Of a stretch of DNA of 38,027 nucleotides, positions 2,107 to 36,303 are shown one piece after another. The translations under genes and the position numbers were made by a program. The notes below the pieces were generated by a model. The model ran no database searches, had not been told where the DNA came from, and was given only the letters and a program-made list of their open reading frames with translations. This DNA is from Candidatus Jordarchaeales archaeon. Its GTDB lineage: Archaea; Asgardarchaeota; Jordiarchaeia; Jordiarchaeales; Freyrarchaeaceae. The stretch lies in NCBI GenBank assembly GCA_038889235.1, contig JAWAHN010000002.1, forward strand, positions 435,397 to 473,423. Direction: 5' to 3'. Each line of letters begins with the position of its first letter. The first letter of the stretch is position 1.

Positions 2107-2127
2107 GCGCCTAAAACTAGCCCCTTT

Positions 2128-4003: not shown

Positions 4004-4013
4004 CGCCCCTCAA

Positions 4014-4023
4014 CTTAAATAAG
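4014..4023 (-). promoter_or_regulatory. TATA box of the tfe operon
   Basis: CTTATTTAAG on the reverse strand lies only about 15 bases ahead of the GTG start. The usual spacing would put the first transcribed base inside the annotated frame, at the TTG codons 3994/3991. This favours a leaderless mRNA. Confidence 0.5.
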
Positions 4024-4203: not shown

Positions 4204-4218
4204 GTTTAATTAATAAAC
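4204..4218. promoter_or_regulatory. Candidate operator: 15-base inverted repeat GTTTA-N5-TAAAC
   Basis: The sequence GTTTAATTAATAAAC has perfect 5-base arms around a 5-base centre. It lies 13 bases upstream of the TATA box of an Lrp/AsnC-type gene. Proteins of that family often bind 15-base AT-centred palindromes at their own promoter, so autoregulation is a reasonable inference. It is only one copy, in AT-rich DNA. Confidence 0.4.
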
Positions 4219-4230
4219 TTTGTGGAATTA

Positions 4231-4238
4231 TTTAAAAG
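4231..4238 (+). promoter_or_regulatory. TATA box of the Lrp-type regulator gene
   Basis: TTTAAAAG is centred about 24 bases before the TTG start at 4258. This predicts a leaderless transcript beginning at or next to the start codon, consistent with the absence of any ribosome site there. Confidence 0.6.
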
Positions 4239-4257
4239 TGTATTAGCTTCCCCTTAG

Positions 4258-4860: not shown

Positions 4861-4955
4861 ATCCTCTAATGTTGGCGCAGTACACGGAGGCGGAGTGCTG
4901 GATAAGCTTCACCTGTTCCTCTCGCTTCCGCATGCAAACACCTAGACGGAAAACG

Positions 4956-4963
4956 ATTTATTA
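4956..4963 (+). promoter_or_regulatory. TATA box of the MBL / MDR / HAD operon
   Basis: ATTTATTA lies about 50 bases before the ATG at 5011, predicting a leader of roughly 25 bases with the GGTGGA ribosome site at 5002-5007. Confidence 0.4.
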
Positions 4964-5010
4964 TGTGTGCGTGTGCTTAAGTTAGATGCTCTCCTTGGGA
5001 TGGTGGAGTG

Positions 5011-6608: not shown

Positions 6609-6623
6609 CAGGGGGAAGCGCGC

Positions 6624-7322: not shown

Positions 7323-7473
7323 GCAGCCTTCTCTGGAGCGCTAGAACCCACTTCTGTCAGCGATCGTGGAAAAGGGGAAAATTATATTACTTCGCTGGCA
7401 GAATTAAGATTTTGTACAGTTTTTCTGTGTTGTCCCCGTGCGGGGTACCTGCCCTTCTATCCGAGGTGAGGTA

Positions 7474-8790: not shown

Positions 8791-8875
8791 TTGCAACCTT
8801 CTCCCTGAGAAGGGAAGCTGCCCCCTCTTAAAACCGGTGTGGAGCCGACGCAATGACTAGTAAAGATAAAAAATG

Positions 8876-8884
8876 TTAAATATA
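8876..8884 (+). promoter_or_regulatory. TATA box of the Tes-like gene
   Basis: TTAAATATA lies about 48 bases ahead of the ATG at 8928. The predicted transcript would start near 8906 and carry the GGTGG ribosome site. Confidence 0.5.
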
Positions 8885-8927
8885 ATATTGTTTAGAACTA
8901 CTGGAGACAGTTCCTTTGGTGGTTGTG

Positions 8928-10463: not shown

Positions 10464-10584
10464 CCGCCCAACTTTCTTTTCCAAAATTTTCCCTAAGCAA
10501 CCCTTTCCCCGTGTTCGAAGACAAGTTTTAAACGGTGTTTCCCTCCAAGTTTCCCCAGAACATTTTAAGTTTTGTGGTTGGCTG

Positions 10585-10592
10585 TTTTAAAG
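10585..10592 (+). promoter_or_regulatory. TATA box of the COG2100-type gene
   Basis: TTTTAAAG lies 41-48 bases before the GTG start at 10633, predicting transcription from about 10614 with the GGTGG site at 10621-10625 in the leader. Confidence 0.45.
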
Positions 10593-10632
10593 GCGTGACC
10601 TATAGCTCCTTTTTGTAGAGCGGTGGTAGCCG

Positions 10633-11646
10633 GTGGAGCAAGGTAGGAGTAGGATTTTCAGGGTGGAGGACTCCCCGCTAGTCGGGTGCATAGCCTTCGG
10701 ACTAATAGACAGGGGGACCAATCTAATCCAGGTGAGGCCGACATCTATATGCCCCCTCTCGTGCGTCTTCTGCTCGACGGACTCTGGCCCTAAATCGAGG
10801 AGCAGGCTTACAGAGTACGTGGTTTCCTTGGACTGCATAGTTGAAGAGTTTAAGAAGCTGGCTTCAATAAAGGGGGATGGAGTTGAAGCGCATATAGACA
10901 CGGTGGGCGACCCGCTGACATACCCGTGGCTCGTTGAGTTGGTCTCAGAGCTGAGGGGGGTGAGAGGCGTCAGCGTTGTCTCGATGCAGACCCACGGCTC
11001 CCTCCTTAACGAGAAGCTCATCGACGATCTCTCGTCGGCTGGACTATCAAGGGTTAACCTTTCTATAGACGCCATGGACGTGGCGCTGGCCAAGCGCCTC
11101 TCAGACACCGAGTGGTACGACGTTAGTCGAGTAGCCGAGCTCGCCAGGTACATAGTTGACAACACGTCCATCGACCTACTAGTCGCCCCGGTCTGGGTTC
11201 CAGGAATAAACGACCAGGAAATTCCCAAGATAATAGAGTTCTCGATCAGGATAGGAGCGGGGAAAAAGTGGCCTCCTTTAGGAATCCAAAAATATGAGGC
11301 TCACAAGCGTGGAAGGAAGCCTAAAGGTGTACGCCCCCTCTCGTGGCGCGCTTTCTACGCGAAACTGAAAGAGTGGGAGGATGTTTTCAACGTTAAGCTG
11401 AGGCTTTCCCCAGCCGACTTCTCAATAAGAAAAGCCCCCTCTTTACCACTACCATACAAGCTGCTTGAAAAAATTCAGGTGAAAGTGGTTGGTCCAGGGT
11501 GGTTGAAGGGTGAGAAGCTCGCCGTCACGTCCAGGGGGGACAGGCTGGTCACCCTAGTCAGAGCTGAACACATACCGGTAGGAGCGACTGTAAGGGCGAG
11601 GATAATCGCCAACAAACACAACATATACATCGCCGAACCTCTATAA
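10633..11646 (+). CDS. Radical SAM protein with C-terminal TRAM-like domain (COG2100 type)
   Basis: The 337-residue protein has a radical SAM motif CPLSCVFC (Cys40, Cys44, Cys47), a typical AdoMet-barrel (DTVGDPLTYPWL, LSIDAMD) and a C-terminal beta-rich domain from about 270 (IQVKVVGPGWLKGEKLAVTSRGD…GATVRARIIANKHNIYIAEPL) that looks like a TRAM/OB RNA-binding fold. This arrangement resembles COG2100, an uncharacterised archaeal family; the TRAM domain suggests an RNA substrate. The GTG start is supported by GGTGG seven bases ahead. It follows the Tes gene on the same strand but has its own promoter. Confidence 0.8.
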   Translation: MEQGRSRIFRVEDSPLVGCIAFGLIDRGTNLIQVRPTSICPLSCVFCSTDSGPKSRSRLTEYVVSLDCIVEEFKKLASIKGDGVEAHIDTVGDPLTYPWLVELVSELRGVRGVSVVSMQTHGSLLNEKLIDDLSSAGLSRVNLSIDAMDVALAKRLSDTEWYDVSRVAELARYIVDNTSIDLLVAPVWVPGINDQEIPKIIEFSIRIGAGKKWPPLGIQKYEAHKRGRKPKGVRPLSWRAFYAKLKEWEDVFNVKLRLSPADFSIRKAPSLPLPYKLLEKIQVKVVGPGWLKGEKLAVTSRGDRLVTLVRAEHIPVGATVRARIIANKHNIYIAEPL

Positions 11647-11685
11647 GCGATAGTTAAATAACCCGTTCAACCATCCTAACCTGAT

Positions 11686-13467
11686 CTAAAATCCTTTCTC
11701 CTTTAAAAACTCCTTAATTTCACGTTTCAACTCTTCAACGTTTATTTTTCCGCTGCTCGCCAAGGGAATCGCGTCCCTCACCAGGATCAGGTTGGGCCTC
11801 AGTACTGGTGGAAGGTTACGGCTACACCATTCGTCGAGGACCTTCTCCGTCAACTTTCCCCGGTAGCCCTCTTTCGGTTCAACCACTAACGCCAGTAAGC
11901 TTCCACGGCCAGGAACTGTTACCGTCACAGCTTTAGCTGCCCCCACGGCAGGGTGCTGAAGCACCCTCCGCTCAACCTCAATCGGATACACTTCAACCCC
12001 CTCCACGTCGAGCAGCCGTCCCATGAAATAGAGGAACCCGTCCTCGTCGTACTTTCCTAGGTCCCCCGTCCGCAGCCATCCTCCAACGAACTTCTCCTCT
12101 GTTTCGTCAGGCCTGTTAAGGTAGCCCTTGGCTAGAGACGGTGACTTGATCACTATTTCCCCCACCTCCCCTAAGGGGAGCAACTCGCCGGTCTTGGGGT
12201 TAACTATCTTTATAAGTGTCCCTGGAACGGGCACGCCGCAGAAGACACCACCGTGCTTTTCAGCCTTCCTCAAATCGAGGTCGTTCCTGTGAAATCCCCC
12301 AGCTATAGTATCCTTTGTGTGTGTCTCCGTCAGCCCGTAGCTTGACTCGCAAAGCGTCGTCCCAGTGAGGCTGAACCATTCTTTTCTAAGGCGCTGGGTT
12401 AAATGGGATTTTATGCTACTCCCAATACAGCTCCTGAGGGAGCGAAGGTTGTACTTTCCGATTTTAGGGTATCTTAAAAGCTCGTCGTAGAGGCTGAACT
12501 CGAGGAACACGGATGTCACCTTGTATTTCTCTATGGCGTACAAGGCGTACTCCGGATTCCACTTAACCATTAGGACAACGGTGCCGCCGGCAAATATGGG
12601 TGCGTCGACACATGCCAGCTTACCCGCCACCCAGAATGCGGGCATCGCTCCGAGGTGCACTCCCCCCTCAAAGTGTTTCATCAAAATCTCAGCGTCAATC
12701 TGCTGATTCCCGTAGACGTCAACTATGAGCGCACTGGGGGAGTAAGTGCAAGCCACAGCAGCCTTGAACAAGACATTCCAATGGGTGTGGACGCACGCCC
12801 TTGGGACACCGTAGCTTCCCCCGGAAAACAATATTACCGCGTCGTCGTCAAGAGACACGTTAACATCCACATGTCCTTTATTTTCCTCCAACAATTCAAC
12901 CAGGCTTAGCCCACCCACCTCTTCAACCCTAGACCTAACTTCGGGTGGCGCCTTCTCGTCAAGCTCCGTCACAAAATCTGAGAGACTCGTAGTTATAATG
13001 TACTCCACCCCGCCGATCTCCCTGACCACGTTCGACGTCAAGGGATAAACGTTGTTGGTGCAGACTACGACGTCCGGCTTAACCTCCCCCAGCATGTATT
13101 CCGCCCCAGCAGCGCTAACCCAGGGGGCCATTAGTGCGCATGTGCACCCCGCCTTAAGCGTGCCAAAGTATGTCACGAAAAGGGAAGGGCAGTTTGGAAG
13201 CTGAAGAGCCACCACATCTCCCTTGCCGAAACCATGACTGGCGAGGAAGAAAGCAAACCTTTCGCTCAGCTCGTCAAGCAAACCATAAGACATGCTTGAC
13301 CCATAATATATCAACGCGTTTTTCTCTGGACGTCTACGCGCCCTCCTCCTCAGGTACTCGAAAATAGGCACCCGCCCAAATGGATATATCGGCTCCCTCG
13401 GCAAGGGCCGAGGCCACACAAGCTCCCACTTCTTCATCAAAACCTCAAAATATTCTTTCTCATCCAA
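11686..13467 (-). CDS. AMP-forming acyl-CoA synthetase / fatty-acid-CoA ligase family protein
   Basis: The protein of about 593 residues belongs to the ANL adenylate-forming superfamily. It carries the core phosphate loop in altered form (LFSGGSYGVPRACVHTH, where the usual pattern is SGTTGxPK), the adenine motif SSYGLTETHTKD, the hinge motif GWLRTGDLGKYDEDGFLYFMGR and the C-terminal catalytic lysine in ASSGKINVEELKR. It probably activates a carboxylic acid to its CoA thioester. The longest frame opens with ATG at 13497, but the TATA box at 13502-13509 is too close for that codon to be transcribed. TTG codons at 13473, 13470 and 13467 lie about 25-35 bases downstream and are better starts. Confidence 0.85.
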   Translation of the reverse strand: MDEKEYFEVLMKKWELVWPRPLPREPIYPFGRVPIFEYLRRRARRRPEKNALIYYGSSMSYGLLDELSERFAFFLASHGFGKGDVVALQLPNCPSLFVTYFGTLKAGCTCALMAPWVSAAGAEYMLGEVKPDVVVCTNNVYPLTSNVVREIGGVEYIITTSLSDFVTELDEKAPPEVRSRVEEVGGLSLVELLEENKGHVDVNVSLDDDAVILFSGGSYGVPRACVHTHWNVLFKAAVACTYSPSALIVDVYGNQQIDAEILMKHFEGGVHLGAMPAFWVAGKLACVDAPIFAGGTVVLMVKWNPEYALYAIEKYKVTSVFLEFSLYDELLRYPKIGKYNLRSLRSCIGSSIKSHLTQRLRKEWFSLTGTTLCESSYGLTETHTKDTIAGGFHRNDLDLRKAEKHGGVFCGVPVPGTLIKIVNPKTGELLPLGEVGEIVIKSPSLAKGYLNRPDETEEKFVGGWLRTGDLGKYDEDGFLYFMGRLLDVEGVEVYPIEVERRVLQHPAVGAAKAVTVTVPGRGSLLALVVEPKEGYRGKLTEKVLDEWCSRNLPPVLRPNLILVRDAIPLASSGKINVEELKREIKEFLKEKGF

Positions 13468-23624: not shown

Positions 23625-24926
23625 CTTTCAACTCTCTCACTAAGATTCATCTTTATGTCGAAGTACTTTCAACTCTCTCGCTGAGATTCCTTGCCCTCCT
23701 TAAGAAGCCTGGCGAACCGCCTCAGCAGCCTCCAGTAAACATATATTACAATTGCAATATAGAGTATCAGGCCAGCCAGCTCCAACCCGCAACCCCCCGC
23801 TATGCTTTCGGCAGCCTTTCAACTCTCTCGCTGAGATTCTGTGCTGTTGGTCACCGTCCTTATGGCTTCGACTGTTTCTTTCAACTCTCTCGCTGAGATT
23901 CTTAAGCCTGTGCAGCCTAGTTGCCGGTAAGCCCATCGACCTTTCAACTCTCTCGCTGAGATTCCACGTATGCTGTCCGCATAGTAAACGATGTGCTCGT
24001 CGGGCACCTTTCAACTCTCTCGCTGAGATTCAGCCAAGCATATAGAGGCGGGAGAAGCGAAAGCTTCGTAAGCTTTCAACTCTCTCGCTGAGATTCAGAA
24101 CGACATAGTGCCAGCGCTCGACGGTGTGTTTAACCTCTTTCAACTCTCTCGCTGAGATTCGTGGCCCCAAAAGGCGCCATAGTCGTTCTCAGGTACGAGA
24201 CCTTTCAACTCTCTCGCTGAGATTCTGATCCACTCGACCTCGAACTCCGCTCTAACGCCCTTGAACTTTCAACTCTCTCGCTGAGATTCACGAAGACGAC
24301 TGCAAAAATAAGGGTTGCCGCGAGCACCTTTCAACTCTCTCGCTGAGATTCGACAGCATACCCCATATATGCAACGACCACTAGAGAACTTTCATCTCTC
24401 TCGCTGAGATTCTTATTTTATTAGTTTTTGTTGGTGGTGTTTATGAGTCTTTCAACTCTCTCGCTGAGATTCGAATCAGTGGAGCTAAGAACAAGTGCGT
24501 TCAACCCCCAACCTTTCAACTCTCTCGCTGAGATTCTCTCCAACCACTCCTTTTCTCCACATTATGTATATTATGTCTTTCAACTCTCTCGCTGAGATTC
24601 TGGAAAAAGAGGGGGTTGTCGAGTACAGGGAGGCGCAGAGGAGGATTCTTTCAACTCTCTCGCTGAGATTCTTGTTTTACCGCATCTATGTTCCAACGCA
24701 CACCAGCGTGCTTTCAACTCTCTCGCTGAGATTCTTAACAGCTGGCAAGCGTATGTTAACGGCTGGATCAGCAGCTCTTTCAACTCTCTCGCTGAGATTC
24801 TCACCTCGAACACGAAATCATAATGCGAACATCTATATTCTTTCAACTCTCTCGCTGAGATTCGCAGTATTTTGCAGAGAGAGCAGTTCCTGTTGTTGAT
24901 CACTTTCAACTCTCTCGCTGAGATTC
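23625..24926 (-). CRISPR. CRISPR array, 20 repeats of 24 bases, 19 intervals, leader at right end
   Basis: On the + strand the repeat begins CTTTCAACTCTC and ends TCGCTGAGATTC. Its sense strand is the reverse one, ending GTTGAAAG, as in other crenarchaeal repeats. Repeats start at 23625, 23666, 23816, 23878, 23941, 24008, 24073, 24137, 24202, 24266, 24328, 24389, 24449, 24513, 24577, 24648, 24711, 24777, 24840 and 24903. Most spacers are 36-47 bases, typically 38-41. Exceptions are the most distal (17 bases) and the next (126 bases). The repeat at 23625 has two changes (CTCACTAAG) and that at 24389 one (TTCATCTC). The degenerate repeat at the left marks the distal end, so transcription runs leftward from the leader beside cas4. 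Confidence 0.98.
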
Positions 24927-25077
24927 CGAGGTATTTTTTTGTCTTTTTTGCTTTTTTTGTTTTTCTCTTTTTTGTTTTGTGGGGGGTTGTTTCGGCGGTG
25001 GTTGTTTTGTTTTTGGGTTGTTGTTTTTCGCCGAAGTGTGGGTTTGTGTTGTGGGGGTGTTTTGGTTTTTTTGTGTT
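24927..25077 (-). promoter_or_regulatory. CRISPR leader
   Basis: The 151 bases between the last repeat and the cas4 stop codon are almost free of A on the + strand (long T and G runs), so the sense strand is A/C-only. Position and the conserved adjacent repeats identify it as the leader, where new spacers enter and array transcription should start. I see no standard TATA box inside it; the promoter may be atypical or lie within cas4. Confidence 0.75.
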
Positions 25078-25671
25078 TTATGGGTGGCATATTTTTTTGT
25101 AGCCGCAGTTGTGGCATTTTGTTGTTTGTTTTATTGGTGGTAGTTTTTCTTTTTCGATTATTTCTTTTATTTTGTTTATTGTCCATTTTACGTGTTTTCT
25201 TATTTGTTCTGTTAGGGGGATTTCGATTGATTTTTTGTCTTTGAGGTAGTTTATTTTTATTTTTTTGATTGGTTTTCCTAGTTTTTCTTCTGCTAGCATG
25301 GCGTATGCTGCTGCTTGGTATATGTGTGCGGGGTATGGTTTTCTGGGTGCTTTTGTGTACTTGTTTTCTATTAGGGTTAGTCCGTGTTGTGTTTCTGCTA
25401 TTTCGTCTATGATTCCGTATATGCCTAGTTTTTTTGATGTTGCGGGGAGTTTGCTCCAGTGTTTTGTGACTGGTTCTTTTCTTTCTCCGCTGAGTGTGGT
25501 TCTGCGTTGTGCTTTTTTGTCTTCTTTTGTGTGGTGTTCTTTTCCTTCTTTCATTGTTTCTGTTGGTTTTTCTTTGTAGCCTAGGACTGCTATGTGGTAG
25601 ATTATTCTTGGGCAGAAGTGGTATTGTTTTATCCAGGTGACTGGGATTAGGTTTTCTTCGTCTTCTGACAT
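25078..25671 (-). CDS. cas4: CRISPR-associated exonuclease Cas4
   Basis: Cas4 trims prespacers and checks PAMs during spacer acquisition. The 197-residue protein has the four cluster-binding cysteines (Cys20 in YHFCPRI and Cys186, Cys189, Cys195 in CHNCGYKKICHP). The RecB-like nuclease core shows IYGIIDEI, LIENKYTK and the Q-x3-Y motif in HIYQAAAYAML. It is the last gene of csa1-cas1-cas2-cas4, 7 bases after cas2. Codon use is strikingly A-rich (mostly AAA lysine and AT-ending codons), unlike the GC-rich cas1 and csa1 next door, suggesting separate ancestry or drift linked to the leader. Confidence 0.93.
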   Translation of the reverse strand: MSEDEENLIPVTWIKQYHFCPRIIYHIAVLGYKEKPTETMKEGKEHHTKEDKKAQRRTTLSGERKEPVTKHWSKLPATSKKLGIYGIIDEIAETQHGLTLIENKYTKAPRKPYPAHIYQAAAYAMLAEEKLGKPIKKIKINYLKDKKSIEIPLTEQIRKHVKWTINKIKEIIEKEKLPPIKQTTKCHNCGYKKICHP

Positions 25672-25678
25672 GTTCTCT

Positions 25679-25966
25679 TTAGACGATGAGTTCTTCTTTG
25701 GCGTATTCTTCGAATGGTTTTCCTATTATTTCTCTTTGTGCCATGTCTGCTCTGCATATTGTGAAGATTTGTATGTTTCCGTCCGTGTTTTTCATTATTT
25801 TTCTGAGGGCTGCGGATAGTTCTTTTCTTCTTGAGCTTGTGAGTTTGCCGAGGAATGTGCTTCTCTGTATTCTTGCCAGCCCGAAGGCTTTGCAGGTTTC
25901 GCTTACTTTGAGCCTTGTGTTGTCGTCGCTTATGTCGTAGACTACTAGTGTGTCCAAATTTTTCAC
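25679..25966 (-). CDS. cas2: CRISPR-associated protein Cas2
   Basis: The 95-residue ferredoxin-fold protein forms the core of the Cas1-Cas2 integrase. It has the usual first strand with the catalytic-type aspartate (LVVYDISDDNTRLKVSETCKAFGL) and the following RIQRSTFLGKLT and IQIFTICRADM segments. Length is normal. Its start overlaps the cas1 stop by four bases, so it is translationally coupled in the adaptation operon. Confidence 0.95.
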   Translation of the reverse strand: MKNLDTLVVYDISDDNTRLKVSETCKAFGLARIQRSTFLGKLTSSRRKELSAALRKIMKNTDGNIQIFTICRADMAQREIIGKPFEEYAKEELIV

Positions 25967-26970
25967 CTCATTGTGAAGGGCTTGTAGTCTTGGGTTCTGG
26001 AGAGGAGGTAGTCTGCGATTCTCCTCGCCTGGAGGAATATGTGGCTGTGGAAGGGGAGGCGCCTGCCTAGGAAAGACACTTGCTCTGACAGTCTTTCGGA
26101 TACTGCTTTGACTGCTGCGAACCTCGCCTCTCTTTTAAGTCTCCCGTTTTCGACTGTTGAGTGCAGGTTTTTCATGCTCCACGCGAGTCTTAGCACCGCT
26201 CTGTCTACGACCGGCTGCCTGAACTCTTCCATGGCGTCCATTACGAGTGCCGGCCTTCTGGGTGAGTCTACGTGTAGGAACCCTGCGTAGGCGTCGAGGC
26301 CGGCTGACTCGACGGCGAGCCACACTTCCATGGAGAGCAGGGAGTAGCAGAAGTTGAGCATTATGTTGATGGGGTCGTCGGGCATCTCGAACCTCTTCCT
26401 CCTCCCCGGGAACCCTGCATCCTCTGGCAGTATGAGCTTGAAGCCCTCCCAGTATATCTTGGCGGCTTCAGCCTCCAGCTTCATTATCTCGCTTCTGACG
26501 TCGTCGACGCAGCTTCCCTCCAGGCTTAGGATTTCCTCCGCTATTTTCGCCTCCTCCTTGGAGAGCTCGATTAGTGTCGTTGAGAGGCGTGGCCTGTTTT
26601 TTCCCGCCTCCCTCAGGAGGGCTTTCTGGTTGACGACCTTGGCCCACGAGAACCTTTTTGCCAGGTAGGCTCCGCTCGGCTTGCCCTGGGCGCTGTACTG
26701 GGCTTTTCGCAGCGCGACCGTGCCTTTCCCCGTGAAGCTTGAGAGCTTGGCTTCAGGGTATCCGCCGGAGTAAAACACGATGTCCACGTTGTGCCTTGCG
26801 AGGAGGGTTACGACCGCTGAGGACATTGACGCGCCGCGCGTCAACACTACTACTTGCCCTATGTTTGAAGGGGAGACTTCTAGTATTTTCTCGCCCCTTT
26901 TCTTGACAACCACCATTCCCTTCCTAGCTGACAGGAATGTTCCCGGCTCGTTTATCACGAGTCTTTTCAA
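25963..26970 (-). CDS. cas1: CRISPR-associated integrase Cas1
   Basis: The 335-residue protein integrates new spacers at the leader. The N-terminal beta domain (NEPGTFLSARKGMVVVKKRGEKILEVSPSNIGQVVV) is followed by the helical catalytic domain. Likely metal ligands are visible: Glu in KLEAEAAKIYWEGF, His in AGFLHVDSPRR, and Asp/Glu in VMDAMEEFRQPVVDR. Length is typical. Its ATG lies 47 bases inside the end of csa1 in another frame, while its own end overlaps cas2 by four bases. Confidence 0.97.
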   Translation of the reverse strand: MKRLVINEPGTFLSARKGMVVVKKRGEKILEVSPSNIGQVVVLTRGASMSSAVVTLLARHNVDIVFYSGGYPEAKLSSFTGKGTVALRKAQYSAQGKPSGAYLAKRFSWAKVVNQKALLREAGKNRPRLSTTLIELSKEEAKIAEEILSLEGSCVDDVRSEIMKLEAEAAKIYWEGFKLILPEDAGFPGRRKRFEMPDDPINIMLNFCYSLLSMEVWLAVESAGLDAYAGFLHVDSPRRPALVMDAMEEFRQPVVDRAVLRLAWSMKNLHSTVENGRLKREARFAAVKAVSERLSEQVSFLGRRLPFHSHIFLQARRIADYLLSRTQDYKPFTMR

Positions 26971-27916
26971 CGCTCCCCCCTCTGCAGACTGGGTGGTACG
27001 GGCAGTAGCTTGGGCAGTTGAGTGGCTTTCCCGGGTCCCTTGAGGCGGAGACCACTTCGTGGGCTTCGTCCCTTATTTCTATGAACTCCCGTCTCAGCTC
27101 GTCTCCTATCACGAAGCACTTGACCTTGAAGCTTGGGACGGGGCCCGGGAACTTCACGTACACGATGAAGCCGTAGTCGACTGGGACTCCCTCCTCGGCT
27201 TCTAGTGCTAGGGCGTAGCCTGCGAGCGCGTAGGGGTGGAACTCCCTTTCCTCTCCGGTTTTAAGGTCTGCTACGGCGTTGAAAGGGGTGTACACGTCCA
27301 CGCTGAGCTCCCTGCTTAGACCTATGAGGCTTCCGTCGATCTTTCTCTCTGCAATGGGTGGCACCGTTATGCTCACCAGTGAGTCGACGTCCGAGTTTGG
27401 GTGCTTCGAGAGGGCTTGGTCCAATCTCGCCGCAGCCTGCACTGCAAGGAACTTGCAGAAGGCTAGGGCTTCGTCCTTCAGTTTTGCTTTAACTTCTCCG
27501 CTAACCTCTGAGAACATGTGATCCGCGTAGAGCAGTGCTTTCTCAACTAGGACGGCTGCTAGGGGGGCGACGGCTTCTATGAGCTCGAAGCCGCACTGGA
27601 CGTCGCCTGAAAACAGGAGTTTTTTAATGGTGAGCAGCATCTCTCGGTTGACGTTGTGGAGCACCACTCCTCTGGCGGTTTTGGCGCTTGCAGGGGCTTT
27701 TACTCCTAGAACCCTTTTGAGGTATATGTCGCGCATTGAAGCGCAGTAGCGTCCTGCAAGCTCGCTTACGCTGAAGAGGAGTGATCTGGATGGGGGTTCG
27801 ACGGGTGGGGAGTCGAAGGACCACCCTCTAAGCTCCTCGCTGACCCCCTTGAACCCGAGCTCGCGGCGTAGGAGTCTCAGGCGCCTGTCTAGCTCGAGCT
27901 TGTCGAGGAAAAGCAT
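26924..27916 (-). CDS. csa1: CRISPR-associated protein Csa1 (Cas4-like nuclease of type I-A)
   Basis: Csa1 is a Cas4-related RecB-type nuclease found with type I-A adaptation genes. The 330-residue protein has four cysteines suited to a 4Fe-4S cluster: Cys58 (GRYCASMRDIYL) and Cys301, Cys305, Cys311 (CPSYCPYHPVC). The nuclease core shows DGSLIGLSRELSVDVYTPFNAVADLKTGEEREFHPYALAGYALALE. It is first in the leftward adaptation operon, with GGTG ahead of ATG 27916. Having both csa1 and cas4 is common in I-A loci. Confidence 0.9.
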   Translation of the reverse strand: MLFLDKLELDRRLRLLRRELGFKGVSEELRGWSFDSPPVEPPSRSLLFSVSELAGRYCASMRDIYLKRVLGVKAPASAKTARGVVLHNVNREMLLTIKKLLFSGDVQCGFELIEAVAPLAAVLVEKALLYADHMFSEVSGEVKAKLKDEALAFCKFLAVQAAARLDQALSKHPNSDVDSLVSITVPPIAERKIDGSLIGLSRELSVDVYTPFNAVADLKTGEEREFHPYALAGYALALEAEEGVPVDYGFIVYVKFPGPVPSFKVKCFVIGDELRREFIEIRDEAHEVVSASRDPGKPLNCPSYCPYHPVCRGGSVEKTRDKRAGNIPVS

Positions 27917-28002: not shown

Positions 28003-28311
28003 TTGTCCAGTTTTCTATCTGAAGAGGAGTGGGGTGTTTTGAGGGATATTGCTGGCTTTCTCCGCCAGTTTGTCGAGTACGACCCTGAGAGGCCGCGTTA
28101 CGGGTACATTGACAGGCTGGCGACGCCTTACAATCTCAAAATAGTTGAGTTGACGCTTGAGGAGGCGCTTAGGGAGGCGCGCTCGTCAGGGGATTTCTGG
28201 ATTCCCTCGGAGGAGTCTGTGAAGAGGTTTCTCGAGCTTTGCAGCAGGGATCTGAGGTACTCCACTATAGTTGCGGCTTTGGCTCTGGCGAAGTTAAGTA
28301 GGAGGAGGTGA
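28003..28311 (+). CDS. csa5: Type I-A Cascade small subunit Csa5 (Cas11a)
   Basis: The 102-residue mostly helical protein matches Csa5, the small subunit of the archaeal Cascade complex (YIDRLATPYNLKIVELTLEEAL… and a C-terminal helix ending KLSRRR). Csa5 supports target DNA binding and R-loop formation. It heads the rightward interference operon, six bases before cas7. The TTG start follows GGTGGT. The family is divergent, so the call leans on position and size as well as sequence. Confidence 0.8.
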   Translation: MSSFLSEEEWGVLRDIAGFLRQFVEYDPERPRYGYIDRLATPYNLKIVELTLEEALREARSSGDFWIPSEESVKRFLELCSRDLRYSTIVAALALAKLSRRR

Positions 28312-28317: not shown

Positions 28318-29442
28318 ATGTTCGTCTCTCTTGGGATGAGGTTTCTGGCTAACATTGAGGCTTTGAACGCCGTTGAGAGTGTTGGGAACGTTACGAAGCA
28401 CAGGAGGGCTCCCATAGTTGTCTTAGACGAGAAGACTGGGAAATACACTATTAGGTATGTTCCGAGCATTAGTGGCGAGAGCCTGGGGCACGCATACCAG
28501 AGTAACGTGGTGGAGTTCGCCACGGAGGTCTACAATGGGAATCCGCCGGTCTGCAAGTGGTGTAGTAGGGGTGAGTTCTTCAAGTCTATGTCTCTGAAGT
28601 TTACGCACGAGGAGGCGAAGAAGGTTCAGGAGGAGCGCAAGTCTACAGCTGACCTTGAGTCTGTTAAGCACGAGTTTGAAAAGGCGGTCATAAGGTCGTG
28701 CCTGGTTGAGGACATTGGGGGCTTCCTCCTGGCTGAGGAGGATTTCCCGGTTAAGAGGACGTCTGTCTTCTTCACTGGGTACGTTGTTCCAACGCTTGAT
28801 TCTCTCGAAGCCACGGTGATAGACACGCAGTTCCATGCTAGGCATGCGCCTGTAATGGCGGGGAAAAAGGAGGAAAAAGAAGCGACGGGGAAAAAGGAGG
28901 AAGATGAAGTGGCGGGAGAGGAGAAGCAGAAAAAGCAGAAGAAGGAGGTCGCGGCGCAGATGATCTACTACGTGGAGGTTGCGTCTGCTGTCTATGGTAT
29001 GCGCATCGACATCGACTTGGACGCTATAGGTAGGACTAAGCTTGTGCTTGTCGAGGACGCTGTGGACGCTGAGGAAAGGAAGAAGAGGGTTTTGTGCGCT
29101 TTGGGGGGTCTGGCCCTCACGGCCCTCGGAAGGTTTGGCGCTAAGAGGAGCAGGTTTAACCCGATAAGTGAGGTTAAGAGCATCCTGGTGACGGTGTCCG
29201 ACGTTTACTCGTTCTCGGTTACACCGCCTCACACAAGGGACTACATAGCTTTCACTCTCAAGAGGGCTAACGCCGCGTTGGGCTTTATACAGGAAGCTGG
29301 CCTGAAGGGTGAGATCAAGCTTTTGGCGTACGATGGGGAAACCGGGGTGAGACTGGAGGGTGTCAGCTACTTCGACACACCAGAGGACCTCTTCAGGGCG
29401 CTCATAAACTATGTGAAAGAGAATTACCTTAAGCAGGGGTAG
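28318..29442 (+). CDS. cas7: Type I-A Cascade backbone protein Cas7 (Csa2), with charged repeat insertion
   Basis: Cas7 coats the crRNA as a helical backbone. The 374-residue protein shows the Csa2 opening (VSLGMRFLANIEALNAVESVGNVTKHRRAPIVV), SGESLGHAYQ, and the C-terminal CALGGLALTALGRFGAKRSRFNP and FDTPEDLFRAL. It is longer than usual Csa2 (about 320-340) because residues 181-211 are a Lys/Glu-rich insertion made of three 9-residue units (GKKEEKEAT, GKKEEDEVA, then GEEKQKKQK). The first two units come from a 27-base tandem duplication at 28861-28914. The insertion sits just after IDTQFHARHAPVM, probably in a surface loop. Confidence 0.93.
   Translation: MFVSLGMRFLANIEALNAVESVGNVTKHRRAPIVVLDEKTGKYTIRYVPSISGESLGHAYQSNVVEFATEVYNGNPPVCKWCSRGEFFKSMSLKFTHEEAKKVQEERKSTADLESVKHEFEKAVIRSCLVEDIGGFLLAEEDFPVKRTSVFFTGYVVPTLDSLEATVIDTQFHARHAPVMAGKKEEKEATGKKEEDEVAGEEKQKKQKKEVAAQMIYYVEVASAVYGMRIDIDLDAIGRTKLVLVEDAVDAEERKKRVLCALGGLALTALGRFGAKRSRFNPISEVKSILVTVSDVYSFSVTPPHTRDYIAFTLKRANAALGFIQEAGLKGEIKLLAYDGETGVRLEGVSYFDTPEDLFRALINYVKENYLKQG
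28861..28941 (+). repeat. 27-base tandem repeat inside cas7
   Basis: Units at 28861-28887 and 28888-28914 share their first 15 bases (GGGAAAAAGGAGGAA) and are similar throughout; 28915-28941 is a more diverged third unit. The period keeps the reading frame. Confidence 0.75.
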
Positions 29443-29444
29443 GT

Positions 29445-30233
29445 ATGACGCCGCCGTCCCCCCTTTTCTTTCTGAAGGTTCCGTGCGTGGTGCACTGGGG
29501 GTGGAAGCTTAACATTGTTCCGTTCAGCAAGTCTAGGCCGCCCCTCGTAGTTCCACCCCCCTCGTCCCTTATTGGCGCGCTGGCTTACCCTCTCGGAAGG
29601 CTGCTTCGCTTCCCGGAGACGCGCGGCAACCTCAGCTGGGCCGAGTCCCTCAGGAGGGGGCTCGTGTACGTTGGTCTACGAGTTGACGCTCCCCTCGTCC
29701 CTTACTTCGACCTGAACAGGATCCATTTCTTCTACCGTGGCAAGGAGAAGAGTGACGCTGTTGCCGTCGGCAAAACCTACGTTCTCTCTGTTTCCCGTTT
29801 CCCTCCGACTATAACGCTGTGCTACGTCGCCGACCTTGGGAGGGTTGAGGAGGCTTTGGGGTGTGTGGACGCGAGGAATGTTTTGGTTGAGGCTGCTTGG
29901 GGGATAACTCGGGTGGGCTCTAGGGAGTCGCTGGTTTCACCATTAGAAGTGGTTTTTGGCGAAGCCAGGGTTGTGAGCGAGGTTAGAAGAGGTGAGACGG
30001 CTTTCTCGTTCATGAAGAAGGCTGCCGCGGCCGTGGATGGAGCGTTTATCGTTGAGGAGGTGGTCGATTGGGAGTTGACGGAAATAGGCGACTACGGACA
30101 TGCGGGGCGCGAAGTCCTAGTGGTCCCCTATGATGAGGAGGAGAAGCGGTCGAAGCCCGTCGCTGTAGTGGTTTCCAGCGGGTACTCGTTTGTCGACGTT
30201 GGAGGCGAACTTGTGGTGGCGAGGGTGGGGTGA
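29445..30233 (+). CDS. cas5: Type I-A Cascade subunit Cas5
   Basis: Cas5 binds the 5' handle of the crRNA in Cascade. The 262-residue RAMP protein has the N-terminal FFLKVPCVVHWGWKLNIVPFSKSRPPLVVPPPSSLIGALAYPLGRLL, typical of the archaeal Cas5a group, and a later EAAWGITRVGSRESLVSPLEVVFGEA segment. It begins two bases after the cas7 stop and is followed by cas8a2. Identity is supported by both sequence and gene order. Confidence 0.88.
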   Translation: MTPPSPLFFLKVPCVVHWGWKLNIVPFSKSRPPLVVPPPSSLIGALAYPLGRLLRFPETRGNLSWAESLRRGLVYVGLRVDAPLVPYFDLNRIHFFYRGKEKSDAVAVGKTYVLSVSRFPPTITLCYVADLGRVEEALGCVDARNVLVEAAWGITRVGSRESLVSPLEVVFGEARVVSEVRRGETAFSFMKKAAAAVDGAFIVEEVVDWELTEIGDYGHAGREVLVVPYDEEEKRSKPVAVVVSSGYSFVDVGGELVVARVG

Positions 30234-30237
30234 GATT

Positions 30238-31422
30238 GTGAGCTACCGGCTTACGGTGAGTCTTCCGCCGGAGGGCACTCTCATAAGGGATCTCACCGTA
30301 CTCTCTCTGGTCTACGTCAAGGAAAATGTGGACGAAGTGGAGTGGCAAAGTGACAAGGTGATTGTGAAGGCGCCATCGCAGGGTGCCGTCGTGGACGCCT
30401 TCGAGGCGCTTTACGAAAACGCTGCCAGGGTAGCTAGCGGCAAGGCACCTAGGGTTAAGATAGGCTTGCTGCAGAATGACCGCTCAGTTTTTTCAAAGCT
30501 GATCGGTGTGCAGTGTGACACATACCTGGATGCTGTGAGCAGTTTCCTGCTGGCCCACAAGAACAAATTGAATCCTGATTTCCTAAGCAGCTCTCTGAGC
30601 CACGTGTCGCTCGGCGCCGACGAGCTCGAACTGGGGGTTGGCAAAAAATTCCCGGCGTTGAACCTACTGGTTAGTGAGAAGTACGAGCGTGGACTCGAGT
30701 TTGGGAGACTGAACTTGAAGCGCAAGTTCGATGTTAGGTTGGATGAAGAATGGTACGCGCTCGTCTTGTCCGGCCTGGCTTTCTCCGTCTCGTCTTTTAT
30801 CGATAACGACCTGTTGCTCACCTGCATACCTGAACATGCTCTCCTCGTCTCTCATTTGAGGGCTCTAAGAGTCCTTGAGAAGGCTTACGTGAGTTTGCGC
30901 GACTTGCATGGTAAGGTGAGCGAGACAATATACTCGGAGAACGTCACACTGGACCCTGTTCCGGCATTCTTACTGCTCCTCGCTCTCTCGTTGGCGAAGA
31001 AGGCGAGTGATCTGAGGGCGCTGCACTCGCTTGACAGGATCTCTTTTGTTTTTTACAAGTTTAGGCGGTCGCGCAACGTTTTCACACTGTTAGGCAAGCA
31101 CCTGGTTGAACTGCTCGACTTAGTGTTGTTCGCGGCTAGATTAGTTGAAATGTCTAGAGAGCTGGTCTCTGAGCTTGTGCAAGTCGCTAGGCGAACAATA
31201 GAGCTCACGTTCAGGGCGCCTAGGGAGGACGAGCCGGACTACACTGTTTACAACCGCTTCTGCACGCTGCTCGTCCAAGCTATTCAGGGGGCTTACTCCA
31301 TTCACGAGATCGTCTACTATGGGGCTAGATACGGGCTTATAAGTGGCGAGTTGGCCGAGGGGATCCTTCATGCATCGTCTCAGCGAGGTGTACTCCCGGC
31401 TGAAGGAAAAGGGCTTCTTTAG
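30238..31422 (+). CDS. cas8a2: Type I-A Cascade large subunit Cas8a2 (Csa4)
   Basis: The 394-residue mainly helical protein occupies the large-subunit position between cas5 and cas3'. Features are weak: an N-terminal alpha/beta part (YRLTVSLPPEGTLIRDLTVLSLVYV) and a helical C-terminus (TLLVQAIQGAYSIHEIVYYGARYGLISGELAEGIL) that resemble Csa4. Large subunits recognise the PAM and recruit Cas3. The frame is open upstream to 30190 inside cas5; GTG 30238, four bases after the cas5 stop, is the sensible start. Its end overlaps cas3' by 53 bases. The call rests mostly on context. Confidence 0.75.
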   Translation: MSYRLTVSLPPEGTLIRDLTVLSLVYVKENVDEVEWQSDKVIVKAPSQGAVVDAFEALYENAARVASGKAPRVKIGLLQNDRSVFSKLIGVQCDTYLDAVSSFLLAHKNKLNPDFLSSSLSHVSLGADELELGVGKKFPALNLLVSEKYERGLEFGRLNLKRKFDVRLDEEWYALVLSGLAFSVSSFIDNDLLLTCIPEHALLVSHLRALRVLEKAYVSLRDLHGKVSETIYSENVTLDPVPAFLLLLALSLAKKASDLRALHSLDRISFVFYKFRRSRNVFTLLGKHLVELLDLVLFAARLVEMSRELVSELVQVARRTIELTFRAPREDEPDYTVYNRFCTLLVQAIQGAYSIHEIVYYGARYGLISGELAEGILHASSQRGVLPAEGKGLL

Positions 31423-33118
31423 AGGTTCGAGGGAAAGGGTCTGCATAGATTCTGTTCTCGAGCTCCTTGAGAAGCAAGTTGAGGGCCCGTCGCTCACGTT
31501 TATACAGTTGCCTCCCGGTTACGGTAAAACCGCTATACCGTACTCCTTGTGCTTCTGGGCTATTTCTAACGACGACACCCGTGTTGAACGGGCGATTCAA
31601 GTCCTCCCCCTTAGGTCGATAGTGGAGAATGTTGTAGGGAGGTTCATCGGCAGAGACAAGTATGGTGAGACTCATGGGGCATTGTCTCTCGGGCTTACTT
31701 TGGAGGAGGCGAAGAGTATAGCGGGCGGGCAGTGCATGTTCATGCATGAAGCGAGTTTCATGCAAAAGAGCTTTGTTGCAACGACACTGGACACGTTCAG
31801 CCTAACTGCCGCTAAGCTCCCTCCCGTCGAACTTCAGAAGATCGCCAGGGAGTATGTTGGTGGGATGGGAAGCTTCGGCCACTACGAGATCGCTAGGGGG
31901 GCCATCCTATCCTCGGTTGTCGTGTTCGACGAGGCGCATCTCTTCATAGAAGAGAGGGAGAAGGAGAGCAAGGCGACTACTCTGCTGATATCACTCATAG
32001 TGTCTCTTCTTGAGCTACATGTACCTGTCGTTGTGCTAACTGCAACGCTCCCCAGCAGGGTGAGGGAGTGGCTAGGGGAGGAGGTTAGGAAGTACCTGCC
32101 GAACATTAACATAGAGAGGTTCGAGTACGGTGTTAGCGGCCTCCGCGACAACGACTTCGAAGGCGAGATAAGCTCGGTTAAGTTGCGCACTTTCAAGGTT
32201 AAAAGCGACCCTGATTACATTTCACGCATAGTTGAGGAGGCTTCACGCTCGAAGCGCGTGCTGGTGGTTGCAAACACTGTGAGTAGGGCTAGGCGCATCT
32301 ACGACGAGCTTAGCAATCATTTGGACAACTTGTTGTTGCTTCACTCGAAGTTCACACAGAAGGACAGGGAGAAGAAGCTGAGTTGCCTAGAGAAGGATGA
32401 AGAGTGGGTTTGTGTCTCGACACAGGTCGTTGAGGCAGGGGTTGACGTGTCGGCGGACGCCCTCTTCACGGACATAGCTCCGTTCTGCTCCCTTGTTCAG
32501 AGGGCTGGCCGGTGCTGTAGACCGTCGCACGTCGGCAGTAGTGGAGAGGGCTCCATCGTGATTTGTGTCAGTGACGAAGCAGTCTCGGAGGCTGAGAAGG
32601 TATACCATGCCGAGTTACTGGGGAAAACCAGGTTAGCCCTTGAAAAAGTGGGTGAGCAATTTAACTGGCACTCGTATGAGTCGTACATCCCACTTGTCAA
32701 CGAATCCCACTCTGTGGTTCCCAGAAAGAGTGCATCGCTCCTTATGGAGATGAAGAAGTTCTTGCTTGACCCCTTCGTCGACTCAAAGGATGCCTTCGCC
32801 TTCCTGCTCGATTTAGGTAGCTTCACGCGTGACAGTCCACTTGTTACAGGAATAGTGTGCGATGAAAGCGAGGTCAAAGACGGTTTGCTGAAAGAGGAAG
32901 GAAACTACATTCCGTTGGAGCTGAGCGACGTGAGGGAGATCGCAAAGATGGGGGGTACAAAGATCGTCGTACGTGAGGGGAAAGTAAGGGAAGAGAGTAT
33001 TGCGGAGAGTGAGCTTTCGCGCCCCAAAAACTTCTACGAAAAAGTGTTGCTCGGGTCAGTCGCCGCGGTGCGCATCCCGCCTGGAGTGTATGATAGTGAT
33101 AGGGGGTTAAGGATTTGA
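31370..33118 (+). CDS. cas3': CRISPR-associated helicase Cas3'
   Basis: The 582-residue superfamily 2 helicase unwinds target DNA for degradation. Walker A is LPPGYGKTAIP (Lys53), motif II is VVFDEAHLF (near 188), motif III is VVLTATLPS, and motif VI is DIAPFCSLVQRAGRCCRP (near 378). The nuclease HD domain is absent and encoded separately by the next gene, the usual split of type I-A. ATG 31370 gives a start MHRLSEVYSRLKEKGFF; it lies inside cas8a2 in another frame. A GTG at 31343 is an alternative. Confidence 0.95.
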   Translation: MHRLSEVYSRLKEKGFFRGSRERVCIDSVLELLEKQVEGPSLTFIQLPPGYGKTAIPYSLCFWAISNDDTRVERAIQVLPLRSIVENVVGRFIGRDKYGETHGALSLGLTLEEAKSIAGGQCMFMHEASFMQKSFVATTLDTFSLTAAKLPPVELQKIAREYVGGMGSFGHYEIARGAILSSVVVFDEAHLFIEEREKESKATTLLISLIVSLLELHVPVVVLTATLPSRVREWLGEEVRKYLPNINIERFEYGVSGLRDNDFEGEISSVKLRTFKVKSDPDYISRIVEEASRSKRVLVVANTVSRARRIYDELSNHLDNLLLLHSKFTQKDREKKLSCLEKDEEWVCVSTQVVEAGVDVSADALFTDIAPFCSLVQRAGRCCRPSHVGSSGEGSIVICVSDEAVSEAEKVYHAELLGKTRLALEKVGEQFNWHSYESYIPLVNESHSVVPRKSASLLMEMKKFLLDPFVDSKDAFAFLLDLGSFTRDSPLVTGIVCDESEVKDGLLKEEGNYIPLELSDVREIAKMGGTKIVVREGKVREESIAESELSRPKNFYEKVLLGSVAAVRIPPGVYDSDRGLRI

Positions 33119-33891
33119 GCCTCTTGGCTTTTGCGGGTGAAACGTTGAAGGATCACCTAATGGGCGTGGCCGAGATGGCGGTGGGTTTCAAGAAGAGGGC
33201 TCTCACTTTGGCCCGTCTTGCAGGAGTGGAGTTGGCTGACGCTCTGAGAGCTTTCTCGTACAGCGCCGTCTTCCACGATGTGGGTAAAGCTTACGACTGG
33301 TTTCAGAAAAGAATTCACGAGGAAAAGAGTGTCCCGATGCACGAGTACTTTTCAACCGTTGTAGCATACAGGGCTTTGAGCGAGAAAGCCTTCGCTTCTC
33401 AGTATACTAGGGGCCTGTGTCTCAGCGTCCTCCTCGCAGTGGCCTTACACCACTACTCTATAAGGGGGGCCGTGCTCTCCGAAAACGTGGAAAAAAACAT
33501 GAAAAACTTTGTTGGAGCTTCATCGGTTAAACTCGCGGAGAGCGAGAGAGGCGAACTGTGCGAGGCGATAAACTCGGCACTTCGCAGGGTGAGTACAGTA
33601 AGCGGCGTAAACATGCTTTTGAGGGTGGAGGAGGCCGCAATCCCCAGCGAAATCACGCAGAGCGAAGTGTGTGAGGTTGTCGAGTGGCTTAGCGGTGAAG
33701 TCACTATGGATCACTCTCGAAAAAAGCACCTGTATGCCTGCACGCTTGCTGTGCTTAGCGTGCTTCAGCTGGCGGACATAACTGTGGCCGGGAGGAATAG
33801 GGCTGGAAAGGATAATAAGTGGAGTGAACGTTATATCTCAGACCTTCCGACTCCGGAAATCATTTCTAAGGTGAAAAAGTTATTGTTTTAG
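33115..33891 (+). CDS. cas3'': CRISPR-associated HD nuclease Cas3''
   Basis: The 258-residue HD nuclease cuts target DNA together with Cas3'. Motifs are visible: His in ETLKDHLMGVAEMA, HD in SAVFHDVGKAYDWFQKR, His in PMHEYFSTVVAY, the HH pair in VALHHYSIRG and Asp in VLQLADITVAGRN. The TTG start overlaps the cas3' stop by four bases. It is followed immediately by the csa3 frame. Confidence 0.92.
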   Translation: MSLLAFAGETLKDHLMGVAEMAVGFKKRALTLARLAGVELADALRAFSYSAVFHDVGKAYDWFQKRIHEEKSVPMHEYFSTVVAYRALSEKAFASQYTRGLCLSVLLAVALHHYSIRGAVLSENVEKNMKNFVGASSVKLAESERGELCEAINSALRRVSTVSGVNMLLRVEEAAIPSEITQSEVCEVVEWLSGEVTMDHSRKKHLYACTLAVLSVLQLADITVAGRNRAGKDNKWSERYISDLPTPEIISKVKKLLF

Positions 33892-34599
33892 TTGGCGGTG
33901 TACGTTTCATGTGTAGTGGTGGAAAGGGTTGTGGTTGCTGTGGCGGGAAGAGCTATAATTGTGACTTTGGGTTTCGACGAGAAATTCGTTATAAGGGCGA
34001 TCATGCGTAACGCCCCGTTAAAGGAAGATAAGGTCATAGTTTTCGTTCCATCTTTCAAGGATGAAAGGGCTGAGAGAGCACTCAGCTCACTTAAAGAGTT
34101 CTGCGCTAAGATAGGAGAGTTGCGTCTCGAGGAACAGGAGGTTCCCGTCACCGATGTCGAAGGCGCTATAGCGAAGGTGTACCGTGTCCTCAGCCGCGAA
34201 TTGATGGATGGGAGGAAGCTCTGCTTCAACTTGAGCGGCGGGATGAGAGTGTTGATACTTGAAGTGTTGGCGGCCGCCCTCGCAGTTCTAAGAAGCATGC
34301 CCGAAACGAAGGTCGAGGTTGAACTGGAAAACCTTATGGGGCGGGTCGAGTTTAGTTTAAACCACTTCATGCTTTCACAGCCAAGCACACCTGAAAAAGA
34401 CATTTTGTCGTGCATAGCCGAGCTCGAGGAGAAGGGGAAGGTTGCGACGCTCAACACTCTTACTTCAACGCTCAAGGAGCCGCGAACCACACTTTACCGC
34501 AAGCTCCTAGACTTAGCCGATAAAGGTTACGTGAAAGTGGAGAAGCTTGGCAGGTCCATGTTTTTCACGCTCACCAGCATTGGGAGAATATTCCTGTGA
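33892..34599 (+). CDS. csa3: CARF-HTH transcription regulator Csa3
   Basis: Csa3 proteins sense cyclic oligoadenylate or another ligand through a CARF domain and bind cas promoters with a winged helix. The 235-residue protein has the CARF opening AIIVTLGFDEKFVIRAIM and the ligand-site motif LCFNLSGGMRVLILEVL, then a winged helix from about 165 (EKDILSCIAELEEKGKVATLNTLTSTLKEPRTTLYRKLLDLADKGYVKVEK). The frame is open from TTG 33892 right after the cas3'' stop, but the family usually starts close to the IIVTLGF strand; GTG 33931, after GGTGGA, is a good alternative. It is a likely binder of the palindromes at 27932 and 27977. Confidence 0.88.
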   Translation: MAVYVSCVVVERVVVAVAGRAIIVTLGFDEKFVIRAIMRNAPLKEDKVIVFVPSFKDERAERALSSLKEFCAKIGELRLEEQEVPVTDVEGAIAKVYRVLSRELMDGRKLCFNLSGGMRVLILEVLAAALAVLRSMPETKVEVELENLMGRVEFSLNHFMLSQPSTPEKDILSCIAELEEKGKVATLNTLTSTLKEPRTTLYRKLLDLADKGYVKVEKLGRSMFFTLTSIGRIFL

Positions 34600-34608
34600 G
34601 GGGGGTGT

Positions 34609-35547
34609 ATGAAGCGGATATTCTCCTTCACGCTCACTCTCTCCGTGGAAAGCCCGGTCTCTTTCCAGAGCTTCTCCGGCTTCGCGTCCTCCGGCCTCTT
34701 CTACAACATAGTTGCCTCGGCTGACGCCGTTTTCGCTGAGGAACTTCACCAATCGAAGAAAATCGCACCGTGGGCTGCGACGCCGATAACGCCAACGCTG
34801 AACCCGAGAAACGTCATATACAAGAAGCTAGAGGCTGACTCAGCTTTCAACGTGACTTTCACGGTGATGGATGAGAGGCTTGCCGAGAAGTTCAGGGACG
34901 CATTGTTCAACCCAAACCTGAAGCTGCATCTGTCAACGGTTGAAGCACGCCTCCTCAACATATCAATAAAAACGCACAGCTTTTCCGAAATAGCCTCTAA
35001 AGCTGAACCCCTGCCGAGCAAGTTCGCGCTGGAATTCATAACACCAACGGCTTTTAGACGACCGGTGTACGAGTGCTGCCCGACCTGCCCGCTCTATAAA
35101 AAACACTTGGACAGCAACCAAAAAGGGGAAGGAAAACCATGCAAGCACGCCACCCCTCGAGGGGGGCAACTGGTCCCTCTTCCCCTCCCATCGCTCATGT
35201 TTAAGAACCTCGCGAGAATCTGGTCGTCTTTCTCGGACACGCCGATAGACGCGTGGGAGGCAGCCAAGTGGTCTGAAGACGCTATACTGGTAGCGGGCTT
35301 CCCCAAGGGTTTAAGAACCGTTAGGCTTTACGAACACACGACGACGAACAAGTGGATAGTGGGCTTCACGGGAACAGTGAGGTTCGCCATCGAGAGAGAA
35401 AAGTACAATAAGGAGCTGGCGAAAACAGCTCACGCACTGCTAAAAATGGCTGAGCTCACAAACGTCGGAGTAAGAAGGACAGCCGGACTAGGGATGGTAA
35501 GGTACATCCCGCCAGAGGATACAGCAGAAGAAGACGGCACGGCCTAA
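34609..35547 (+). CDS. cas6: CRISPR RNA endoribonuclease Cas6, with cysteine-bearing insert
   Basis: Cas6 cuts the array transcript within each repeat to release crRNAs. The 312-residue protein has two ferredoxin-like halves and the C-terminal glycine-rich RNA loop NVGVRRTAGLGMVRYI near residues 285-300. The conserved LEFITPTAFRR and LPLPSLMFKNLARIW segments flank an insert (residues about 155-185) with Cys156, Cys157, Cys160 and Cys178 plus His180 (YECCPTCP…KPCKHATP), which could bind zinc or an iron-sulfur cluster. The gene ends the interference operon, nine bases after csa3, with GGGGGTG before ATG 34609. Confidence 0.9.
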   Translation: MKRIFSFTLTLSVESPVSFQSFSGFASSGLFYNIVASADAVFAEELHQSKKIAPWAATPITPTLNPRNVIYKKLEADSAFNVTFTVMDERLAEKFRDALFNPNLKLHLSTVEARLLNISIKTHSFSEIASKAEPLPSKFALEFITPTAFRRPVYECCPTCPLYKKHLDSNQKGEGKPCKHATPRGGQLVPLPLPSLMFKNLARIWSSFSDTPIDAWEAAKWSEDAILVAGFPKGLRTVRLYEHTTTNKWIVGFTGTVRFAIEREKYNKELAKTAHALLKMAELTNVGVRRTAGLGMVRYIPPEDTAEEDGTA

Positions 35548-35661: not shown

Positions 35662-35722
35662 CCTGCTTGTAATAGTTTTGTAGTGGTGTAGTTTTGTAGT
35701 GATATTGGCAGGTGGTTGCTTC

Positions 35723-35950
35723 ATGGTTAAGTATTCGACGATCTCGGTCCCGGAGGACGTTAAGAGGCTGCTGGAGAAAGAGAAGGGGGACAGGGAGTGG
35801 GGTGAGTTTCTTCTGAGTCTTTACGAGGATGTGAAGAAGCTTAGAGCTAGGGAGGCTTTTCGGAGGCTTACTGAGAGCCTTACGGACGAGGAGCTGGAGG
35901 ACATCCTCCGCTCGAGCAGGGAGTTCAGGGAGAGCTTCAGGTTCAGGTGA
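35723..35950 (+). CDS. vapB: VapB-like antitoxin
   Basis: The 75-residue protein begins with a ribbon-helix-helix/AbrB-like strand and helices (VKYSTISVPEDVKRLLEKEKGDREWGEFLLSLYED) and ends in a charged helical tail that would wrap the toxin. Its size and its position just ahead of a PIN-domain gene identify it as the antitoxin, which also represses its own promoter. ATG 35723 follows AGGTGG; eight further codons upstream are unlikely to be used. Confidence 0.85.
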   Translation: MVKYSTISVPEDVKRLLEKEKGDREWGEFLLSLYEDVKKLRAREAFRRLTESLTDEELEDILRSSREFRESFRFR

Positions 35951-35955
35951 GCTTT

Positions 35956-36303
35956 ATGAGGCTAATAGATACTGAAGCTCTAATTGAGCTTATTCGCAGA
36001 GGGGAACATGTCCCCGGAGCCATATCCATAGTCACTTTGATCGAGGTGCTGAGGGGGGTTAAAGCAGAAAAGAGAGTCGCGGTCAAGGAAGCCCTCGAGG
36101 AGAGCTTCACGGTGATAGGGCTCGACAACAGGGTGGTCTTAGCCTACTGCGAGCTCTACGACAGGCTGAGAGGCGAGGGCGAACTAGTACCCGACGCAGA
36201 CATCCTAATAGCCGCGACAGCCATCACCCACGACCTCGGACTAAAATCGAGAGACAAGCACTTCGAAAAACTGAGAAAGCACGGGCTAAAACTAGAACAA
36301 TAA
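35956..36303 (+). CDS. vapC: VapC-like PIN-domain toxin ribonuclease
   Basis: The 115-residue PIN nuclease has the acidic metal site: Asp in RLIDTEALIELI, Glu in VTLIEVLRGV, Asp in VPDADILIAATA and Asp in LKSRDKHFEKL. VapC toxins cut specific RNAs, often tRNA or rRNA, when the antitoxin is lost. ATG 35956, spaced correctly from AGGTGAG at the end of vapB, is preferred to GTG 35947, which overlaps the vapB stop. Confidence 0.88.
   Translation: MRLIDTEALIELIRRGEHVPGAISIVTLIEVLRGVKAEKRVAVKEALEESFTVIGLDNRVVLAYCELYDRLRGEGELVPDADILIAATAITHDLGLKSRDKHFEKLRKHGLKLEQ

Follow-up and report, generated by a model that had tools for sequence, protein, structure and literature searches.

The window analysed here, a stretch of 38,027 nucleotides on contig JAWAHN010000002.1 of a Candidatus Jordarchaeales archaeon, contains a complete-looking type I-A CRISPR-Cas locus. 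This assignment is based on gene content: cas7/csa2, cas5a, a split cas3'/cas3'', csa1, cas4, cas1, cas2, csa3 and cas6 all adjoin the array. The features of the locus are as follows.

23625–24926, minus strand: type I-A CRISPR array, 20 repeats and 19 intervals
23625–23648, minus strand: degenerate terminal repeat with 2 mismatches, at the distal end of the array
23649–23665, minus strand: shortened last interval, 17 bp
23666–23689, minus strand: CRISPR repeat on the distal flank of the oversized spacer; perfect, 24 bp, GAATCTCAGCGAGAGAGTTGAAAG
23690–23815, minus strand: 126-bp oversized spacer with a coding-like open frame on the array sense strand, a hydrophobic stretch then a basic tail
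23816–23839, minus strand: CRISPR repeat on the leader-side flank of the oversized spacer; perfect, 24 bp
24927–25077, minus strand: presumed leader, ~150 bp, T-rich on the plus strand, between the first repeat and cas4 (from repeat polarity and the side of the cas genes)
25078–25671, minus strand: cas4 (TIGR00372, E 1.5e-35, positions 1–180 of 180)
25679–25966, minus strand: cas2 (TIGR01573, E 1.3e-14)
25963–26970, minus strand: cas1 (TIGR00287, E 3.9e-69, positions 2–323 of 327)
26924–27916, minus strand: csa1 (Cas4a; TIGR01896, E 6.7e-72; PF06023, E 2.7e-74)
28318–35547, plus strand, divergent: type I-A effector genes cas7/csa2, cas5a, a 410-aa ORF, cas3', cas3'', csa3 and cas6

Read on the minus strand, the repeat ends in GAAAG. 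From this end and the side on which cas4 lies, we conclude that the leader is at high coordinates and that 23625 marks the degenerate end of the array. The 410-aa ORF between cas5a and cas3' (30190–31422, plus strand) has no match in Pfam, NCBIfam or PADLOC; by position, it is probably a divergent Cas8a large subunit. A 102-aa ORF at 28003–28311 has a weak Csa5 match, and a VapB/VapC-type toxin-antitoxin pair (VAPB_antitox and PIN domains; 35699–36303, plus strand) lies directly downstream of cas6. Another type I-A cas locus is found elsewhere in this genome (L057, positions 1–12512, on contig G000:C4), with cas1, cas2, cas4, cas3', cas5a, cas7 and a CsaX-like gene. That contig is 22.7 kb long, and no array was found within its first 20 kb; the two loci may have the window's single array in common.

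The interval at 23690–23815 is confirmed as real and precisely located. As the initial annotation described, it lies exactly between the second and third repeats counted from the distal end, and it is about three times as long as an ordinary spacer: 126 bp, against a mean of 39.9 bp (SD 2.5, range 36–47 bp) for the 17 complete ordinary spacers. It resembles a spacer in being a unique sequence, present as a single copy in a genome-wide check, between two intact array repeats. Its length exceeds both the array's own range and the 9–95 bp range proposed for spacers in a curation of 4,052 CRISPRs (PMC4852346).

The shortened interval and the degenerate repeat beyond it show that the distal end of the array has been altered (rearranged or eroded) at least once. 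The best match of the 17-bp interval to the rest of the genome has 3 mismatches, which is chance level, and CreA-like targeting by this sequence was rejected on that ground. A shortened distal interval, of 26 bp, is also seen in an Odinarchaeum-like array (L061). The distal end of the window's array is retained in no relative examined. In a relative in the same genus (G001), the equivalent locus is present on a contig that ends about four repeats into the array, and there is no array beside the Hsp20 gene of this relative. No GTDB contig contains the exact repeat.

The minus-strand frame that starts at base 1 of the interval, AAESIAGGCGLELAGLILYIAIVIYVYWRLLRRFARLLKEGK, is open throughout. The initial annotation had drawn attention to exactly 42 open codons from the first base. 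The frame is indeed open, but its length is trivial, since 126 is a multiple of 3 and the upstream repeat ends in an in-frame TGA AAG, and openness is common by chance: two of the six frames are open, ~12% of shuffled intervals keep the same frame open, and ~71% hold some open frame. Hence, the openness of the 42-codon frame is by itself not significant. Codon usage is more telling. The codon log-odds score of the frame is 12.0 bits, compared with averages of 13.3 for host genes and −3.6 for open wrong frames; it falls at the 41st percentile of real 126-nt gene pieces and is reached by 1.3% of open wrong frames and 0.02% of shuffles. Each third of the interval, scored alone, prefers the same frame, and simulations reached the observed single-frame score for 55% of single contiguous coding pieces and 7.5% of sets of three independent pieces. 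The described hydrophobic stretch and basic tail stand: among open frames sampled across the window, only 1.2% reach the 15-residue hydropathy of this frame, which exceeds that of the other 98.8%. The frame probably encodes a membrane segment followed by a basic tail, which does not in itself prove a virus gene. Together, the codon score, the agreement of the thirds, the simulations and the hydropathy are most simply explained if the interval is one continuous coding DNA piece. A special RNA fold was rejected, with a folding z-score of 0.01 for the interval.

Searches for the source of this piece returned only chance-level 17–19-mers. There was no match above chance to the 126 bp or its translation in phage and plasmid records at the DNA and protein levels, to peptide patterns or exact sub-sequences in IMG/VR, or to the interval in GTDB contigs and, at the DNA level, in 228 Asgard-phylum genomes. 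Protein-level searches of 59 relatives gave no genuine match to the frame, and family searches with the translation gave a best E of 0.2 in PHROGs and nothing in Pfam. Several candidates were rejected: four IMG/VR contigs with YVYWRFLRRF-like peptides, which are mere 17-codon chance frames; two further IMG/VR pattern matches, one to an unrelated 635-aa protein and one to a 153-aa frame with nothing in common outside the matched stretch; and small-ORF matches in two genomes (G005 and G006) that overlap a longer conserved gene off-frame. The missing protospacer is uninformative, since ordinary spacers of the same array, where searched, were likewise without matches; for a published Heimdallarchaeum spacer set, too, neither viral datasets nor GTDB gave a match (PMC8813620). 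The suggested origin in a virus or plasmid membrane-protein gene is plausible but unproven; the database searches found no match, family or protospacer.

A protein ruler is generally believed to fix the length of CRISPR spacers. The interval suggests that this measurement of captured DNA, normally strict, failed on one occasion, and we propose that it is probably, although far from certainly, one overlong spacer: a single ~126-bp coding fragment that was captured, escaped trimming and was integrated once. The fragment would derive from a protein-coding region, probably of an invader's membrane protein gene, and would have escaped trimming to ~40 bp; the type I-A Cas1-Cas2-Cas4/Csa1 machinery would have integrated it once between two correctly duplicated repeats, and newer spacers would have pushed it toward the old, distal end. 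The size of the interval, its perfect flanking repeats, the absent remnant, the host-like coding signal in one frame over the full length and the normal sizing elsewhere are observed directly; one acquisition event, a foreign origin and the crRNA are inferred. Protection by Cas1-2 with ruler binding, together with trimming, potentially by Cas4, has been proposed to determine prespacer length in Sulfolobus type I-A systems (PMC5815122). Another report describes longer spacers upon inactivation or loss of Cas4 in type V-A, and cites a length effect for type I-D (PMC9419969). A failure of trimming is a plausible source of the interval, since Cas4 and the ruler may set spacer length and loss of Cas4 activity lengthens spacers in type V-A. 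A standing defect in adaptation is disfavoured, because cas4 and csa1 look complete and the other spacers are tightly sized; in a profile search, the adaptation genes are complete over their profiles. The initial annotation had offered relaxed spacer sizing as one explanation. This is not supported, given the tight sizing of the other 17 spacers, the complete-looking Cas1, Cas2, Cas4 and Csa1, and the lack of similar intervals elsewhere (see below). Its alternative suggestion, an unusual acquisition event, is the best reading of the evidence, although later insertion or rearrangement could also have produced the interval. Several points count against overlong capture: the searches gave no protospacer or homologue that would show contiguity in a source genome, Cas1-Cas2 rulers normally forbid such a length, the distal end has been altered, and this is a single case. 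A bolder proposal, which we consider rather improbable, is that the adaptation complex rarely captures contiguous fragments of about three ruler lengths (126 = 3 x 42) and that the overlong spacer still guides. A possible route would be several Cas1-Cas2 units protecting one DNA end to end.

A 126-bp interval needs added DNA, because a deletion joining two spacers yields at most ~80–90 bp. The length, about three spacers of 42 bp, would also be expected if two or three ordinary spacers had fused with loss or complete erosion of the intervening repeats. We consider this quite improbable. A hidden or eroded repeat was rejected, as the initial annotation had claimed: the best ungapped identity to the repeat within the interval is 11/24 (shuffles average 12.1, and 98.6% are equal or better), the best local alignment score of 6 is reached by 88% of shuffles, and the absence of any remnant above chance is set against two perfect bordering repeats. 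In addition, simple repeat-to-repeat recombination takes out whole units and cannot delete repeats alone. The coding simulations point the same way, with one continuous piece fitting better than three fused spacers by roughly 7:1; a single piece, as originally annotated, is thus favoured but unproven. Given the altered distal end, a later event has to be taken seriously, although it is unlikely: a normal ~40-bp spacer would have gained ~86 bp by small insertion or repair-associated capture as the end of the array, with its 17-bp interval and degenerate last repeat, aged. Consistent with this, 126 − 86 = 40, and a 9/10 direct repeat (23722–23731 and 23808–23817) is spaced by exactly 86 bp; a direct repeat of equal quality, however, occurs in 14% of shuffles. 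An insertion of 86 bp, which is not a multiple of 3, would shift the reading frame, yet one coding frame spans the whole 126 bp. Terminal inverted repeats and a second genomic copy are also absent.

It is very improbable that the interval reflects an assembly error or strain mixture. The genome is metagenome-derived, in multiple contigs and with an estimated contamination of 3.3%, and arrays are error-prone, but the 126 bp are unique in the assembly, the flanking repeats, at 24 bp, are shorter than usual assembly k-mers, and the contig is 500 kb long. A misjoin would require a second copy bounded by the same repeat. Scarcely credible, in our view, is that the interval is no spacer at all but an expressed gene for a small membrane peptide, or a CreA-like regulatory unit, within the array. 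A TTG-initiated 38-aa ORF with a transmembrane stretch and basic tail would take its TGA stop from the next repeat, and the 17-bp interval with its degenerate repeat superficially resembles archaeal CRISPR-like antitoxin RNAs. Nevertheless, there is no in-frame ATG, inspection by eye showed no convincing ribosome-binding site, the collections searched gave no homologue, and the 17-nt sequence has no near-match beyond chance elsewhere in the genome.

If the interval is an overlong spacer, what would it encode? Transcription on the minus strand would run into it from the leader, and Cas6 would cut both flanking repeats; the predicted crRNA has a ~8-nt 5' handle (GUUGAAAG) and a 126-nt guide. The working guide would most likely be the first ~40 nt past the handle, either once the 3' end has been trimmed or within an elongated Cascade. 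In a study of type I-F1 Cascade, the complex assembles with extended spacers, the largest purified being 176 nt, and interference is licensed when the R-loop exceeds normal length (PMC7296934). By analogy with this tolerance, the long spacer need not be dead. It is a concrete test case both for the strictness of the type I-A ruler and for whether a very long guide works. Programs that detect arrays under a limit on spacer length would split this array or misread it.

How rare are such intervals? We measured 999 intervals in 28 arrays near cas1 in other Asgard genomes, and similarly oversized intervals were found in 0 of 995, four gaps of 1.7–9.7 kb having been left out of the count as probable separate arrays or large insertions. 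The frequency of such intervals is thus bounded at roughly 0.3%. The four gaps, of 9.7, 9.4, 3.3 and 1.7 kb (L087, L088, L104 and L106), lie between runs of one repeat, and some may be mobile elements in or beside arrays. In the open-access literature, we found no published case of a similarly overlong, remnant-free spacer.

The array itself is of a familiar kind. It shares with those of Odinarchaeum LCB_4 and Sulfolobus type I-A the class of 24-bp repeat ending in GAAAG and the cas gene set, and the 126-bp interval, like an ordinary I-A spacer, sits within an otherwise regular array. In contrast, the 142 spacers of Odinarchaeum LCB_4 are 35–42 bp long (PMC9246712). Closer in appearance are the three “extraordinarily long” spacers of the curated set, which are also over-length intervals with intact repeats on either side; each of these held a truncated repeat between two normal-length spacers (PMC4852346), whereas the interval described here has no remnant and exceeds 95 bp. 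Loss of Cas4 and slipping during acquisition likewise give non-standard lengths from mis-measured prespacer ends, but in the accessible parts of those reports (PMC9419969, PMC5059440) the length distribution shifts around the normal mode and no ~three-fold length is reported; unlike Cas4-loss systems, this locus has both Cas4 and Csa1. The 126-bp interval is a rare variant (n = 1), beyond the described range and not accounted for by the usual truncated repeat. A clean, remnant-free spacer of triple length would be a natural exception beyond the length range proposed for curated arrays.
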